The notes under the pieces were generated by a model, which was not told where the DNA came from, ran no database searches, and saw only the letters and a program-made list of their open reading frames with translations. Shown here piece after piece: positions 10,656 to 30,111 of a DNA stretch of 39,060 nt. Location: positions 1-39,060 of the forward strand of contig JACMKT010000005.1 of assembly GCA_014380005.1 (NCBI GenBank). Reading direction: 5' to 3'. Each line of letters opens with the position of its first letter. Positions within the stretch are counted from its first letter, which is position 1. The DNA comes from Rhodospirillales bacterium. Lineage in GTDB: Bacteria > Pseudomonadota > Alphaproteobacteria > Rhodospirillales > Magnetospirillaceae. The position numbers and the translations under genes were made by a program.

Positions 10656-11903
10656 CTAAGGGTAAAGTAGCCGGCACGCCGCCACCGCCGCCAGCAACCC
10701 GGCCGCATCGGCAATCAGGCCGGCGGCCAAAGCGTGGCGGATGCGGCGGATGCCGACGGCACCGAAATAGACGGCGATGACATAGAAGGTGGTCTCGCTG
10801 GAACCGTAGATGGTGCCCAGCAGAATGCCGGTGGCGCTATCGACGGCCAGGGCCGGGTCGTGCAGATAGGATGCCAGCAAGCCGAAGGACCCCGACCCCG
10901 ACAGCGAGCGCATGCCGGCCATGGCCAGGGCCTCCGCCGGGATGCCCAACGGCACGGTCAGCCGGCCCAACGGCGCCAGCACCATATGCATGGCACCAGA
11001 GGCACGGAACATGCCCACCGTCACCAGGATGGCGACCAGATAGGGGATGATGCGCATTGCGATGGTGAAGCCCTCGCGGGCGCCGTCCACGAACACCTCG
11101 TAAATATTGACCCCGCGCGCGAGGCCGAAGCCCAGCAGGCCGACCACCAAGCCGGGCACGATCCAATGGCCCAGGGCCTCGCCCTTGAACACCATCAGCG
11201 GGATGATGCCCAGCACCGCCGCCAAGGCCAGGGCGCAGGCCCAAGCCGGGGCGGGGGTAACGATCTCTTCGGCGCAGATGCCGGAATCAGCCACGGGCGG
11301 CGCGTCCGGCTGGGGCGACCAGCGTTGCAGCAGGCGGGCGGCCACCACCGCAACCATTGTGGCAACCAGCGTGGCGAACAAGGTGGGGGCCACCACCGCC
11401 GCCGGATTGGCCGAGCCCAGACTGGCGCGCAGGGCGATGACGCTGGTGGGCAGGATGGTCACGCCGGCGGTGTTGATGGCCAAAAACAGTACCTGGGCGT
11501 TGCTGGCGGTGCCTTTGTGCGGGTTCAGCCGGTCCAGATGTTCCATGGCGCGGATGCCGAACGGGGTGGCGGCATTACCCAGGCCCAGGATATTGGCGGC
11601 CATGTTCATGACCATGGCGCCCAAGGCGGGGTGGCCGTCGGGGATTTCCGGGAACAGGCGCTTGAGCACCGGGGCCAGCAGCCGCGCGGTGGCGCGCACC
11701 ATGCCGCCGGCCTCGGCCACCTTCATCAGCCCCAGGAACAGCGCCATCACCCCCACCAGCCCCAGGGCCAGCGGCACCGCGCCTTCCGCCGCCTTCAAGG
11801 TGGCCTCGGCCAGGGCCGCCATGGCGCCCACGCCGCCCGTGGCCTCGGCCCAGGCGGCCATGGCAAAGGCGCTGGCGGCCAGCAGGAAGAAGACGACGTT
11901 CAC
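10656..11903 (-). CDS. fused SpmA-SpmB-type nucleoside-recognition (Gate) domain membrane protein
   Basis: A 415-residue multi-spanning protein that fuses two Gate domains found as separate SpmA and SpmB proteins in Bacillus. The first half has MVMNMAANILGLGNAATPFGIRAM and the second has SGSGSFGLLASYL with GTIYGSSETTFYVIAVYFGAVG, both SpmA/SpmB hallmarks. The start is a GTG at 11903 (VNVVFFLLAASAF) with GGGAG nine nt upstream; the open frame continues to 12047 but would then overlap the divergent gene. Such proteins occur in non-sporulating Gram-negatives, where their role is uncertain (a transport-like function is assumed). Probably in one transcript with terC. Confidence 0.85.
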   Translation of the reverse strand: MNVVFFLLAASAFAMAAWAEATGGVGAMAALAEATLKAAEGAVPLALGLVGVMALFLGLMKVAEAGGMVRATARLLAPVLKRLFPEIPDGHPALGAMVMNMAANILGLGNAATPFGIRAMEHLDRLNPHKGTASNAQVLFLAINTAGVTILPTSVIALRASLGSANPAAVVAPTLFATLVATMVAVVAARLLQRWSPQPDAPPVADSGICAEEIVTPAPAWACALALAAVLGIIPLMVFKGEALGHWIVPGLVVGLLGFGLARGVNIYEVFVDGAREGFTIAMRIIPYLVAILVTVGMFRASGAMHMVLAPLGRLTVPLGIPAEALAMAGMRSLSGSGSFGLLASYLHDPALAVDSATGILLGTIYGSSETTFYVIAVYFGAVGIRRIRHALAAGLIADAAGLLAAVAACRLLYP

Positions 11904-27370: not shown

Positions 27371-28279
27371 GTGCTGGTCGCCGAAGCCTGCGACGAATTC
27401 TTGATTCATTGCCGCGTCGCCAAGACGCTGTCGCCCCATTCATTGCGGGCCTACGCCATCGATTTGGCTGAATTCCGCGCTTTCGCCGGCCCCGAATGCC
27501 ACGTGGATGCCTGCGACCGTGCCTTGCTGCGCGGCTATCTGGGCCATCTGCTGGACGTGCGCGGGCTGATGGAAAGCTCGGTCAAACGCCGTGTCGCCTG
27601 CCTGAAGGCCATGTTCCGCTGGCTGGAGCGGGAAGAAGTGCTGGCCGTCAGCCCGTTCCACCGCCTGGATCTGGTCATCCGCCTGCCGCGCCGCCTCCCC
27701 CGCGCCTTGCCCGCCGACGACCTCCGCCGCCTGCTCGCCACCGCCGCCGCGGACAATAGCGGCCATCGCGGATTGGCCGCCCAGGTCACGGTGGAATTGC
27801 TGTTCACCACCGGCATGCGCGTGGGCGAACTGGCCAGCGCCACAGTGAGCGCCCTGGATTTGATCGGCGGAACCCTGCGCATTCTGGGCAAAGGCAGCCG
27901 CGAACGGACCGTCTTCCTGGTGGACCAAGACATCCGAACCCTGCTGGCCGCATGGCTGCGTCGCCGCGAGGGTGTGGCGCACGACACCGACGCCCTGATG
28001 GTCACCCCCTCAGGCCGCCCCGCCACCACAGCTTGGCTGAGGGGAATGGTGAAAGCCACCGCCGCCCAAGCCGGTCTCAACGCCATAACCCCCCACCGCC
28101 TACGCCACTCCGCCGCCACCCAATTGCTGGAGGCCGGCGTAGACATCCGGTTTGTGCAGAGGTTGTTGGGGCATCACTCCATAGCGACGACGCAGCTTTA
28201 TACGGCGGTGCGCGACACGGCGCTGAAGGCGGCGGTGTGTGCGGCGGACATCAAGGGGAGGGTGCGGGGGAGGGGGTGA
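27371..28279 (+). CDS. tyrosine site-specific recombinase beside the invertible segment
   Basis: A 302-residue XerC/D-like integrase. An N-terminal SAM-like binding domain (LSPHSLRAYAIDLAEF, SSVKRRVACLKAMFRWL) is followed by the catalytic domain with every active-site residue: Arg150 (TTGMRVGELA), Lys174 (GKGSRERT), His242 and Arg245 (HRLRHSAAT), His268 (LLGHHSI) and Tyr277 (TQLYTAV). The GTG start has AGGGGA 5 nt upstream. It is not clearly a chromosomal XerC or XerD, and no phage or transposon genes accompany it. Its last Gly codon and TGA lie inside the left copy of the 25-bp inverted repeat, so inversion of the neighbouring segment would leave this gene intact. It is the natural candidate to catalyse that inversion; this is inference. 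Confidence 0.9.
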   Translation: MLVAEACDEFLIHCRVAKTLSPHSLRAYAIDLAEFRAFAGPECHVDACDRALLRGYLGHLLDVRGLMESSVKRRVACLKAMFRWLEREEVLAVSPFHRLDLVIRLPRRLPRALPADDLRRLLATAAADNSGHRGLAAQVTVELLFTTGMRVGELASATVSALDLIGGTLRILGKGSRERTVFLVDQDIRTLLAAWLRRREGVAHDTDALMVTPSGRPATTAWLRGMVKATAAQAGLNAITPHRLRHSAATQLLEAGVDIRFVQRLLGHHSIATTQLYTAVRDTALKAAVCAADIKGRVRGRG

Positions 28280-28299
28280 TAACTGAGAATTATGCGAAC
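28275..28299 (+). repeat. left 25-bp inverted repeat (IR-L) of the candidate invertible segment
   Basis: Exactly complementary to 30041-30065. It contains the last base pair of the recombinase's Gly codon onward: TGA and TAA stops, a TGAGAA stretch that serves as a weak ribosome site, and ATGCGAAC, the start of the UbiA-like gene. Internally ATAA and TTAT flank a 7-bp core CTGAGAA, resembling the inner half-sites of tyrosine-recombinase crossover sites. Outside the 25 bp the flanks do not match. Confidence 0.92.
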
Positions 28300-29089
28300 A
28301 ACTGGCATCAGAGGCTGTGCGCGACTGACGCGACCAGAATCAGCCATCATGACATTCTCTGCAATTTTGCTTCCTCGTCTTGCATACGGCGATATGCTGG
28401 AAGATGCGTTCACCATTGCACTGCCATCATTATTTCTGATGATGGCAATATTTGTACTAAATGACTTTAATGATAGAGATAAAGATGCCGTAAACTCACC
28501 TAAACGACCAATCCCATCAATGTTAGTATCAGACAATTCTGCCATTTTACTGTATTTTACATTGCTGTTTGCCTCCATGGCGTCAATATTGTATATTGAC
28601 AGCAGCTTTGTAAAGTGCATATATTTTTCTTTTGCTATAATTGGTCTAAATTACGACCACGCCAATCGTCAATTTCCCGCCATAAAAAATTTGTATGTCG
28701 CATGTTGCTTCCAGCTTCTTACGATGCTTGTGGTGTTTGACAATCCGAACGTACCTCGAAGCATCCTGTTGTGTGCGGCAATATTTATTCACCGCCTTGG
28801 CATCGAAATGTCGATGGATATCGTAGATATGAAAGGCGATGGACGAACAATAGCCAACATAATTGGTGCATCGAATGCGGTGATTGCCTCAACTGCACTT
28901 AGGCTTGCGAGTGCGATTGCAATGATTGCGGCAATAACAACACAAGCAGGCGCAATAATTGTTGCATTAATTTTTCTATGCGAGGCGCTAATATTTCGAT
29001 TATGGAGAGCGGAAGGGTATAGGCGCTCCGCTATCTTGGTAATGAAGGGTGAGATTGCCCTTGGAGTTGCGTTCCTATCATTCGCATGA
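28292..29089 (+). CDS. UbiA-superfamily prenyltransferase-like membrane protein
   Basis: A 265-residue membrane protein with about eight hydrophobic segments. Both Asp-rich motifs of UbiA prenyltransferases are present: NDFNDRDKD at 57-65 (N-D-x-x-D-x-x-x-D, followed by NSPKRPIPS) and DIVDMKGD at 176-183 (D-x-x-D-x-x-x-D). The family attaches prenyl chains to aromatic or glycerol-phosphate acceptors in the membrane; the RPIPS context resembles the archaeal-lipid and chlorophyll-synthase branches. The acceptor is unknown. The gene starts 12 nt after the recombinase stop, inside IR-L, and is much more AT-rich than the flanks. It is convergent with the next gene, with 5 bp between the stops. Confidence 0.82.
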   Translation: MRTTGIRGCARLTRPESAIMTFSAILLPRLAYGDMLEDAFTIALPSLFLMMAIFVLNDFNDRDKDAVNSPKRPIPSMLVSDNSAILLYFTLLFASMASILYIDSSFVKCIYFSFAIIGLNYDHANRQFPAIKNLYVACCFQLLTMLVVFDNPNVPRSILLCAAIFIHRLGIEMSMDIVDMKGDGRTIANIIGASNAVIASTALRLASAIAMIAAITTQAGAIIVALIFLCEALIFRLWRAEGYRRSAILVMKGEIALGVAFLSFA

Positions 29090-29094
29090 GCAAT

Positions 29095-30048
29095 TTATTT
29101 CATAACAACTTGAATAACCATCATTATTATTGTAATTGCCACAGGAAGGTCGCTCAGCGCCACCCTCATTCTATTCCGTAATTCCTCTCGACATAGCTTG
29201 TCATACTCAATTGCATATGACATTCGTTCGAAGGCGGTCATGTTAGTGCGCGCCGTCTTTGCCTTTAGCTTTTCTAACTGCATCAGGATACAGCGAGAAT
29301 ATAACTTTTGGAGCACCACCCTCGGATAGAAATTGAAAATTGTTATTACTGGTGCCGCAATCACAGCCATCAGCAATATTAATATTTTTGTTGCCGGAAA
29401 AAGCGGGTTTGCGGCAAAGGCGCCTCCAAAATAACTAATGGAGTGCATGTACGTAAAAAATATTGTAACGGTAGACAGGGCATTTACATAGGTACCAATT
29501 CCAGCCAATCTGTCGTCCTGAAATATGTCATCTTCAAATTCGACAACTACTATTGAGTTTAGCATTTGCGCCAAATAAAACATTTTTCTCCCAACATATA
29601 CGCCAGCGGCATATTGGGCTGACGCAAATGCGATCATAAAATAATTTCCGAGACGTGATATGCCAAAGTCAGCAATATAATATATTGCCGCCCCAACGAG
29701 TAAGAAATTTGTGCTAAATGTTATTGAGCGCAATATACTAAAGTATCTTTTGCGCTGCTCACCATATTCTGTTTTCGCCAGCGCCTCCGAAGAGAAAACT
29801 TCTTCAATCAATTTCGGTATGTAGTTCTGGCTGTTATTCATTATAATTGCTGCGCCGAAAATTAGTCCGCCAGAAAATACACAATTAAACACTGAAAAGA
29901 ACGAGAGGACATATTTAGTAAATATGTCATTGGCTTCCATTATCCACATAACTAAACTGGTCGAAACTCCGTAAAAGAGGCTGATCCCGAACCCGACAAA
30001 TACGTGGTTCATTAAAAAAAATATATGCCGTGACCGAGGGGTTCGCAT
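29095..30048 (-). CDS. multi-pass membrane protein of unknown function
   Basis: A 317-residue protein with about seven hydrophobic segments (near 9-37, 46-70, 110-130, 138-158, 200-222, 230-257 and the C-terminus) and a charged cytoplasmic stretch between the last two (LEKLKAKTARTNMTAFERM). I recognise no family. Its first codons ATG-CGA-AC are shared with the UbiA-like gene because both starts lie in the inverted repeat. It is AT-rich like its partner. A promoter-like sequence lies upstream, outside the repeat. Possible roles (transporter, lipid flippase, surface-exposed partner of the prenyltransferase) cannot be told apart from the sequence. Confidence 0.75.
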   Translation of the reverse strand: MRTPRSRHIFFLMNHVFVGFGISLFYGVSTSLVMWIMEANDIFTKYVLSFFSVFNCVFSGGLIFGAAIIMNNSQNYIPKLIEEVFSSEALAKTEYGEQRKRYFSILRSITFSTNFLLVGAAIYYIADFGISRLGNYFMIAFASAQYAAGVYVGRKMFYLAQMLNSIVVVEFEDDIFQDDRLAGIGTYVNALSTVTIFFTYMHSISYFGGAFAANPLFPATKILILLMAVIAAPVITIFNFYPRVVLQKLYSRCILMQLEKLKAKTARTNMTAFERMSYAIEYDKLCREELRNRMRVALSDLPVAITIIMMVIQVVMK

Positions 30049-30065
30049 AATTCTCAGTTATCACC
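30041..30065 (-). repeat. right 25-bp inverted repeat (IR-R) of the candidate invertible segment
   Basis: Reverse complement of 28275-28299 over all 25 bases; the match ends abruptly on both sides. It holds the ATG and leader of the minus-strand membrane protein. The adjoining bases form a further imperfect palindrome, AGTTATC (30056-30062) and GATAACT (30074-30080), not present at the left end, which could be an accessory recombinase-binding site. Confidence 0.92.
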
Positions 30066-30082
30066 TTGTGGTAGATAACTTG

Positions 30083-30111
30083 AATATAACTGATTGGTTA
30101 TGGTGTGCCAA
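30083..30111 (-). promoter_or_regulatory. sigma-70-type promoter pointing into the invertible segment
   Basis: On the minus strand, TTGGCA (30106-30111) and TATATT (30083-30088) are separated by exactly 17 bp. Transcription would begin near 30076, just outside IR-R, and enter the gene that starts at 30048. The promoter stays in place when the segment inverts. The 81-bp gap (30049-30115... to the macro gene end) is AT-rich and otherwise empty. Confidence 0.55.

Follow-up and report, generated by a model that had tools for sequence, protein, structure and literature searches.

A probable inversion switch pairing a UbiA-type prenyltransferase with a membrane protein in a Rhodospirillales bacterium, and related loci in other phyla

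Contig JACMKT010000005.1 of a Rhodospirillales bacterium (assembly GCA_014380005.1; 4.24 Mb in 287 contigs) was analyzed over its whole length of 39,060 bases, referred to here as the window. At 27371–30111 it contains the gene of a XerC-like tyrosine recombinase (P0001) and, beside it, a segment bounded by two inverted-repeat arms that holds convergent genes for a UbiA-type prenyltransferase (P0002) and a membrane protein (P0003) (Table 1). The initial annotation, made from the sequence alone, had proposed that the recombinase inverts this segment and thereby exchanges the two genes.

Table 1. Features of the candidate switch, with positions in the window
Feature	Position	Strand	Remarks
P0001 (302 aa), XerC-like tyrosine recombinase and proposed DNA invertase	27371..28279	+	PF00589 130.9 bits
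Left inverted-repeat arm	28275..28299	+	Core GATAACTGAGAATTATG at 28278-28294, 7-bp spacer CTGAGAA; perfect repeat
UbiA-type prenyltransferase P0002, 265 aa	28292..29089	+	Starts inside left arm; PF01040 63.5 bits, E 2.5e-17
P0003, 317 aa, multi-helix membrane protein, candidate seven-transmembrane (7TM) channel	29095..30048	-	Starts inside right arm
Right inverted-repeat arm	30041..30065	-	Perfect repeat
Sigma-70-like promoter TTGGCA-17-TATATT	30083..30111	-	Just outside right arm, directed into segment; 10/12 consensus matches

The two arms were complementary at 25 of 25 positions, with 1741 nt in between, and carried the same spacer. About 7e-7 such pairs were expected by chance in the window, and a search allowing up to 3 mismatches found these two copies as the only ones in the assembly. 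The segment had a GC content of 41%, against 67% for the recombinase gene. The perfect repeats beside the recombinase and the AT-rich segment were thus as first described. Elsewhere in the same genome, a solitary core-like motif with the spacer CTTGGAA was observed (G000:C225:7630, locus L061), and neither a long open reading frame (ORF) nor a recombinase of the family lay nearby.

The recombinase stop codon TGA (28277-28279) lay wholly inside the left arm. The last sense codon, which had also been placed there, reached only two bases into it. P0002 and P0003 are encoded on opposite strands, and both begin with ATG CGA AC inside an arm. A common start within the arms was therefore correctly recognized, but the claim that the first two codons are shared went slightly too far, because the arms supply just the ATG, the codon after it and two bases of the third codon. 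When the segment was inverted in silico, all three proteins remained intact, in agreement with the predicted preservation of every frame.

P0001 appeared complete. Its residues R150, K174, H242, R245, H268 and Y277 were invariant in an alignment of nine homologues, and we take them to be the catalytic R-K-H-R-H-Y set of tyrosine recombinases. It was rejected as a XerC/XerD dimer recombinase, with scores of 206.4 and 185.8 bits against equivalog cut-offs of 335.15 and 329.6 bits. It was also rejected as an integron integrase, with 94.3 bits against a cut-off of 265 bits and sites that are inverted; attC sites were not searched for.

The UbiA-type assignment of P0002 held. Its PF01040 score exceeded the cut-off of 34.2 bits, and both Asp-rich motifs, NDxxDxxxD and DxxDxxxD, were retained. 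P0003 had been described as a membrane protein without a known family; indeed nothing in Pfam, NCBIfam or PADLOC matched it at E ≤ 0.01, and it had no PDB sequence match up to E 1. In one structure model its fold resembled the 7TMIC superfamily, which includes insect gustatory and odorant receptors; a second model had low confidence, and its matches added little support. A passage of PMC11100771 describes the C-terminal 7TMIC motif TYhhhhhQF. P0003 has a C-terminal TxhhhhhQh stretch, and differs from 7TMIC proteins in being bacterial, in its length of 317 aa and in having the motif Y and F replaced by I and V. By the modeled fold, P0003 is a candidate relative, in bacteria, of the gustatory-receptor channels of insects.

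Three confident members of the P0003 type were found, every one inside an inversion switch locus of this kind. In a gammaproteobacterium (L076), a P0003 relative with 49% identity was paired with a UbiA protein of 28% identity, on a contig ending just before the second arm. In an acidobacterium (L110), a relative with 17% identity was paired with a lycopene-cyclase-like FAD enzyme. The type of partner is thus constant in these pairs, and the enzyme changes but stays with an isoprenoid theme. A search for P0003 in 397 other genomes of the phylum gave two matches, both weak and partial; the 16 and 9 kb around them contained no site.

The recombination site and its recombinase family

All 119 related genomes contained an Xer-like match, and 12 contained closer homologues of P0001, with 42-62% identity over the matched part. 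The site was present, whole or partial, at the recombinase 3' end in eight of these 12. It was absent from that position in G043 and G077; the contig of G024 stopped before the site position, and that of G008 ended within the recombinase gene. A wider comparison used the 80 top-ranking loci among 200 relatives from a one-genome-per-species collection; these loci are not independent, and the homologues were chosen by similarity to the query. Their record titles placed them in Pseudomonadota, Acidobacteriota, Actinomycetota, Thermodesulfobacteriota, Nitrospinota, Planctomycetota, Bacteroidota, Verrucomicrobiota, Calditrichota and Myxococcota. A tree built from 46 of the 79 usable family rows (the window among them) and nine Xer-like rows set the family apart by a branch with 100/99 support.

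The site pattern [GCA]ATAA[CT]TNNNRATTM was sought on the recombinase strand, between -25 and +220 bp relative to the end of the gene. It was found in 61 of the 80 loci, against 0.14 expected from background. Four further contigs ended less than 40 bp past the recombinase gene, and three of the remaining 15 loci (L102, L149, L151) had the site 5' of it. These three loci thus had a mirrored layout, and in L151 a whole arm pair (7096/9863; ORFs of 539 and 386 aa) lay 5' of the recombinase. An inverted partner lay within 8 kb in 33 of the 40 loci having at least 1.6 kb past the site, at a distance of 1.7-6.2 kb in 32 of them and 188 bp in L072.

The spacer was mostly CTnnGAA, and the bases flanking the core differed between arms. 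Both arms had the same spacer in 44 of 45 pairs, whereas shuffled partners gave 10.6 (maximum 21 in 10,000). The window, 32 of the 80 loci and another 12 segments in searched genomes made up the 45 pairs, and a few of these are close relatives. The spacer match indicated that these pairs obey the homology rule of strand exchange. The arms also coincided with gene starts: 59 of 66 arms had an ORF of at least 150 codons that began 8-30 bp into the site, compared with 271 of 1986 random control positions, and in 32 arms the start codon was the ATG of TTATG in the site itself. In 24 of 30 pairs, the gene ends were -57 to +30 bp apart. The search for homologous loci, which the initial annotation had recommended, thus returned dozens with a recombinase, inverted repeats and two genes.

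Several loci departed from the simple layout. In a Thermoanaerobaculia genome (L113, 16039-17817), a second arm pair was preceded by a 32-nt copy of the recombinase 3' end, an arrangement that suggests two switch units in tandem. An arm pair in G043 (L062, 6491-8604) enclosed genes for a methyltransferase-like protein and a 427-aa protein, with no family recombinase within the 16 kb examined; it may be an in-trans or orphan switch. In L077 (16791-17410; the same as L024 at 15232), a third site with another spacer stood about 90 bp past the right arm, followed by a GT4 gene, possibly as part of a larger array.

A plasmid origin was rejected, since P0001 (at E ≤ 1e-40) and the L090 recombinase (at E ≤ 1e-60) matched no plasmid record. 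A phage origin was rejected as well: among 42 relatives on viral contigs, the single close one (L228, 39%), which was the only one examined, had no site. Conserved neighbor genes were also considered. Those within 5 kb were either of generic kinds, such as transporters, regulators and oxidoreductases, or belonged to flanks shared by near relatives, indicating that the switch unit stands alone.

Orientation and promoter signals

Related genomes were compared for orientation. Both orientations were found between species, and one assembly held both junctions. One inner gene of Insolitispirillum peregrinum DSM 11589 had its start joined to the recombinase side and, in another contig, to the opposite flank. 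The two junctions were identical over 95 bp inward (to the contig end) and over 0 bp outward. The ATP-grasp and STAND pair had the opposite orientation in L101 to that in L086 and L090, and glycosyltransferase and carbamoyltransferase genes were found on either side in different species (L081/L085 and L077/L125). Among 33 loci with a recombinase and both arms, the enzyme gene was next to the recombinase in 25 and the partner gene in five; three were left unassigned.

Contig ends pointed in the same direction. A contig ended within 150 bp of the recombinase on its 3' side in 23 of 80 loci and on its 5' side in three. Twenty-one genomes (including G011, G021, G024, G052, G058 and G095) were chosen because no more than 200 bp separate the recombinase gene from the end of its contig. 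Nine of them (G095, G120, G121, G122, G123, G125, G126, G129, G130) had a three-contig signature: the recombinase contig ended at or in the site, a contig of 3.4-6.2 kb had a site at both ends, and a third contig ended at the site, running 106 bp past it in G122. We infer that a repeat of 16-26 bp alone would normally be insufficient to break an assembly, and that mixed orientations would cause such breaks. In G130, two contigs (C55 and C122; L146 and L192) ended at the same site, each with a related recombinase end, so two recombinases may share or flank a single segment.

The promoter had been supposed to lie outside the segment, and a promoter-like element was found there (Table 1). Such elements occurred in 13 of 43 right flanks, compared with 6.8 ± 2.1 in shuffled sequences, and in 0 of 33 left flanks, compared with 2.2 ± 1.3. 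Seven of the 43 right flanks had a -10 element ending 17-21 nt before the core, whereas shuffles gave 2.25 ± 1.39; this was the top of 13 position bins tested. Right flanks had 39% GC and left flanks 50%. As promoter-like elements exceeded the shuffles only in right flanks, strong expression is probably confined to the right-arm gene, and the left gene probably trails the recombinase.

Cassette contents and replacement

Across the family, a segment usually paired an enzyme acting on small molecules, glycans or lipids with a sensor-type protein. The enzymes were ATP-grasp/D-Ala-D-Ala-ligase-like, glycosyltransferase, carbamoyltransferase, SHMT-like, methyltransferase, aminotransferase, radical-SAM/ATP-grasp, PEP mutase, UbiA and lycopene-cyclase-like proteins, and a protein with an aminoacyl-tRNA-editing domain (L115). 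The partners were STAND/AAA-TPR proteins, pentapeptide-repeat proteins, P0003-type membrane proteins and proteins without a family; several AAA/STAND and TPR calls did not reach the cut-offs set by Pfam, and BLAST clusters were used to assign members that had no individual scan. One arm of L187 carried two genes.

Some STAND/AAA-TPR partners had an N-terminal Mrr nuclease domain or SIR2 domain (72 bits), and the Mrr residues D48, D52, E78 and K80 were invariant in six partners. The resulting Mrr-AAA-TPR and SIR2-NACHT-TPR layouts presumably resemble Avs. PADLOC, run on 19 proteins (17 partners from other cassettes, P0002 and P0003), returned no full-length defense family; the matches were domain-level (SIR2) or weak.

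Cassettes differed at a fixed locus. In four Pseudoalteromonas loci (L107, L108, L112, L117), the left flank and recombinase were 67-85% identical over aligned stretches, the recombinases were 79-90% identical, and the three available right flanks were 90-92% identical. Their segments had no nucleotide similarity past the arms. This single Pseudoalteromonas luteoviolacea-group locus held SHMT-like and AAA-TPR, ATP-grasp and AAA, GT2 and AAA, or ATP-grasp and a family-less 797-aa protein. P. byunsanensis and P. amylolytica likewise had two different cassettes at the same locus. L072 was near-empty (10947-11136), with 174 bp and no gene separating its sites, as if a cassette had been lost. In the genus of the window, G002 lacked the recombinase and segment at the syntenic position, and G003 and G010 lacked them beside the same macrodomain gene. 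The replacement of whole cassettes at a fixed locus suggested that the recombinase and site form a platform for exchangeable two-state cassettes. The UbiA and membrane protein pair, on which the initial annotation had centered, was conserved in a distant bacterium, but that view was too narrow, as the pair is one of many cassettes of this recombinase family.

How the locus may work and what it resembles

The architecture, the preserved frames, the conserved site, the matched spacers and the two junctions in one relative were read directly from sequences. With these at hand, we consider the locus very probably a site-specific inversion switch, and we infer inversion in this organism. The XerC-like recombinase would bind the two inverted 25-bp sites and exchange strands within the 7-bp spacer. 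The 1.7-kb segment would flip and the convergent genes would change places, one then lying behind the recombinase gene and the other downstream of the fixed promoter beyond the right arm. Because the site itself contains a weak ribosome-binding-like sequence along with the start codon, every junction would stay translatable. A population would be divided into cells in an enzyme state (UbiA) and cells in a sensor or channel state (P0003).

Several results weigh against this reading. The window shows one orientation, on a contig continuous through the segment. Twelve of the 80 recombinases had no recognized site on either side, on contigs not cut off there; among these, L138 had a partial match and L098 a diverged site missed by the pattern. 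No inverted partner was found within 8 kb in 7 of the 40 loci with at least 1.6 kb past the site, and L148 was the single arm pair with mismatched spacers. In 12 of the 21 chosen genomes, the three-contig signature was partial or absent. The predominance of enzyme-adjacent loci (25 against five) means that orientation may be biased or flipping slow. The promoter enrichment in right flanks was modest, as at least one of 200 shuffle sets attained 13, and several of these flanks stem from related species; the absence from left flanks is set against a mere 2.2 expected.

The recombinase could instead chiefly capture and replace two-gene cassettes between matched inverted sites, with inversion a by-product without regulatory meaning. 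The four cassettes at one P. luteoviolacea-group locus, the two in P. byunsanensis and P. amylolytica, and the near-empty L072 favor this idea. We nevertheless rate it as unlikely, because start codons borne on the arms and the tail-to-tail packing of 24 of 30 pairs keep both junctions expressible, which acquisition alone would not need. Somewhat less probable still is constant expression of both genes, one from each side, so that inversion would alter their levels little and be nearly neutral. Transcribable DNA does precede both arms, with the recombinase gene on the left and the promoter-like element on the right; however, the pairing of enzyme and sensor recurs with both frames kept, and promoter-like elements exceeded the shuffles on the right only. 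A transposon-like insert with terminal inverted repeats, placed beside the recombinase gene by chance, would account for an AT-rich segment within GC-rich DNA and for the absence of the unit from three related genomes. It is hardly credible, since the ORFs encode a UbiA enzyme and a membrane protein and no transposase, the arms are conserved across phyla as recombinase-associated sites, the start codons of the genes lie in those sites, and the matched spacers and both junctions in a relative contradict it.

The inversion switch has partial counterparts. In the Vpma locus of Mycoplasma agalactiae, the XerC-type recombinase Xer1 acts on sites at gene starts, and inversion selects the gene expressed from one fixed promoter. 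The Vpma genes encode homologous surface lipoproteins within one genus. The window locus shares the type of recombinase and the sites at gene starts, and would share the fixed promoter and the choice of gene by inversion, but its two genes are unrelated and apparently functionally complementary, and one recombinase and site family extends across phyla. The fim switch (FimB/FimE), Mpi and the capsular polysaccharide (CPS) promoter invertases of Bacteroides also combine tyrosine recombinases with inverted sites; these invert promoters, whereas the window locus would swap whole genes. Integrons and Komano-type shufflons combine a tyrosine recombinase with exchangeable gene cassettes, and the window family differs in that its sites are inverted rather than direct and usually form one pair. 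STAND/Avs-like and SIR2-NTPase antiphage proteins share their layout with some partners, though the PADLOC matches were limited as described above. To our knowledge, no such protein is switched by inversion alongside a biosynthetic enzyme.

In passages of published papers, the Vpma shufflon and its XerC recombinase are mentioned (PMC11868660), fim is presented as a short promoter segment (PMC5903667), and hsdS inversion by PsrA/CreX (PMC7096588) and the Hin flagellin switch (PMC8987985) are described. Titles in the reference list of PMC11868660 name Moraxella Piv pilin inversion and promoter addition by inversion. The hsdS, Piv and Hin systems likewise alter coding DNA or gene choice by inversion, but they choose among variants of one protein type, and the window locus would choose between unrelated genes. 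Among the papers listed in searches of full-text literature, from which subscription papers are mostly absent, none described the site or loci of this kind.

As a tentative extension, these loci might be cross-phylum two-state switches of immunity or chemistry, in which one recombinase family and site would carry an exchangeable cassette of an enzyme and a sensor or effector. Flipping would split a clone, and cassettes would be exchanged via the same sites. The sensor state might be a STAND nuclease, an NADase-like protein or, as here, a bacterial relative of insect taste-receptor channels, and enzyme cells might make a modification or metabolite.

If the segment flips as proposed, the system would represent phase variation between two unrelated functions, not between variants of one surface protein. 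It is recognizable by a 17-bp motif in many phyla and is thus easy to find and test. Its single small recombinase, short site and junction-borne start codon may also make it useful as a genetic tool. It also provides a set of enzyme and sensor pairs, some with defense-like nuclease, SIR2 and STAND domains and one with a possible relative of animal chemoreceptor channels.

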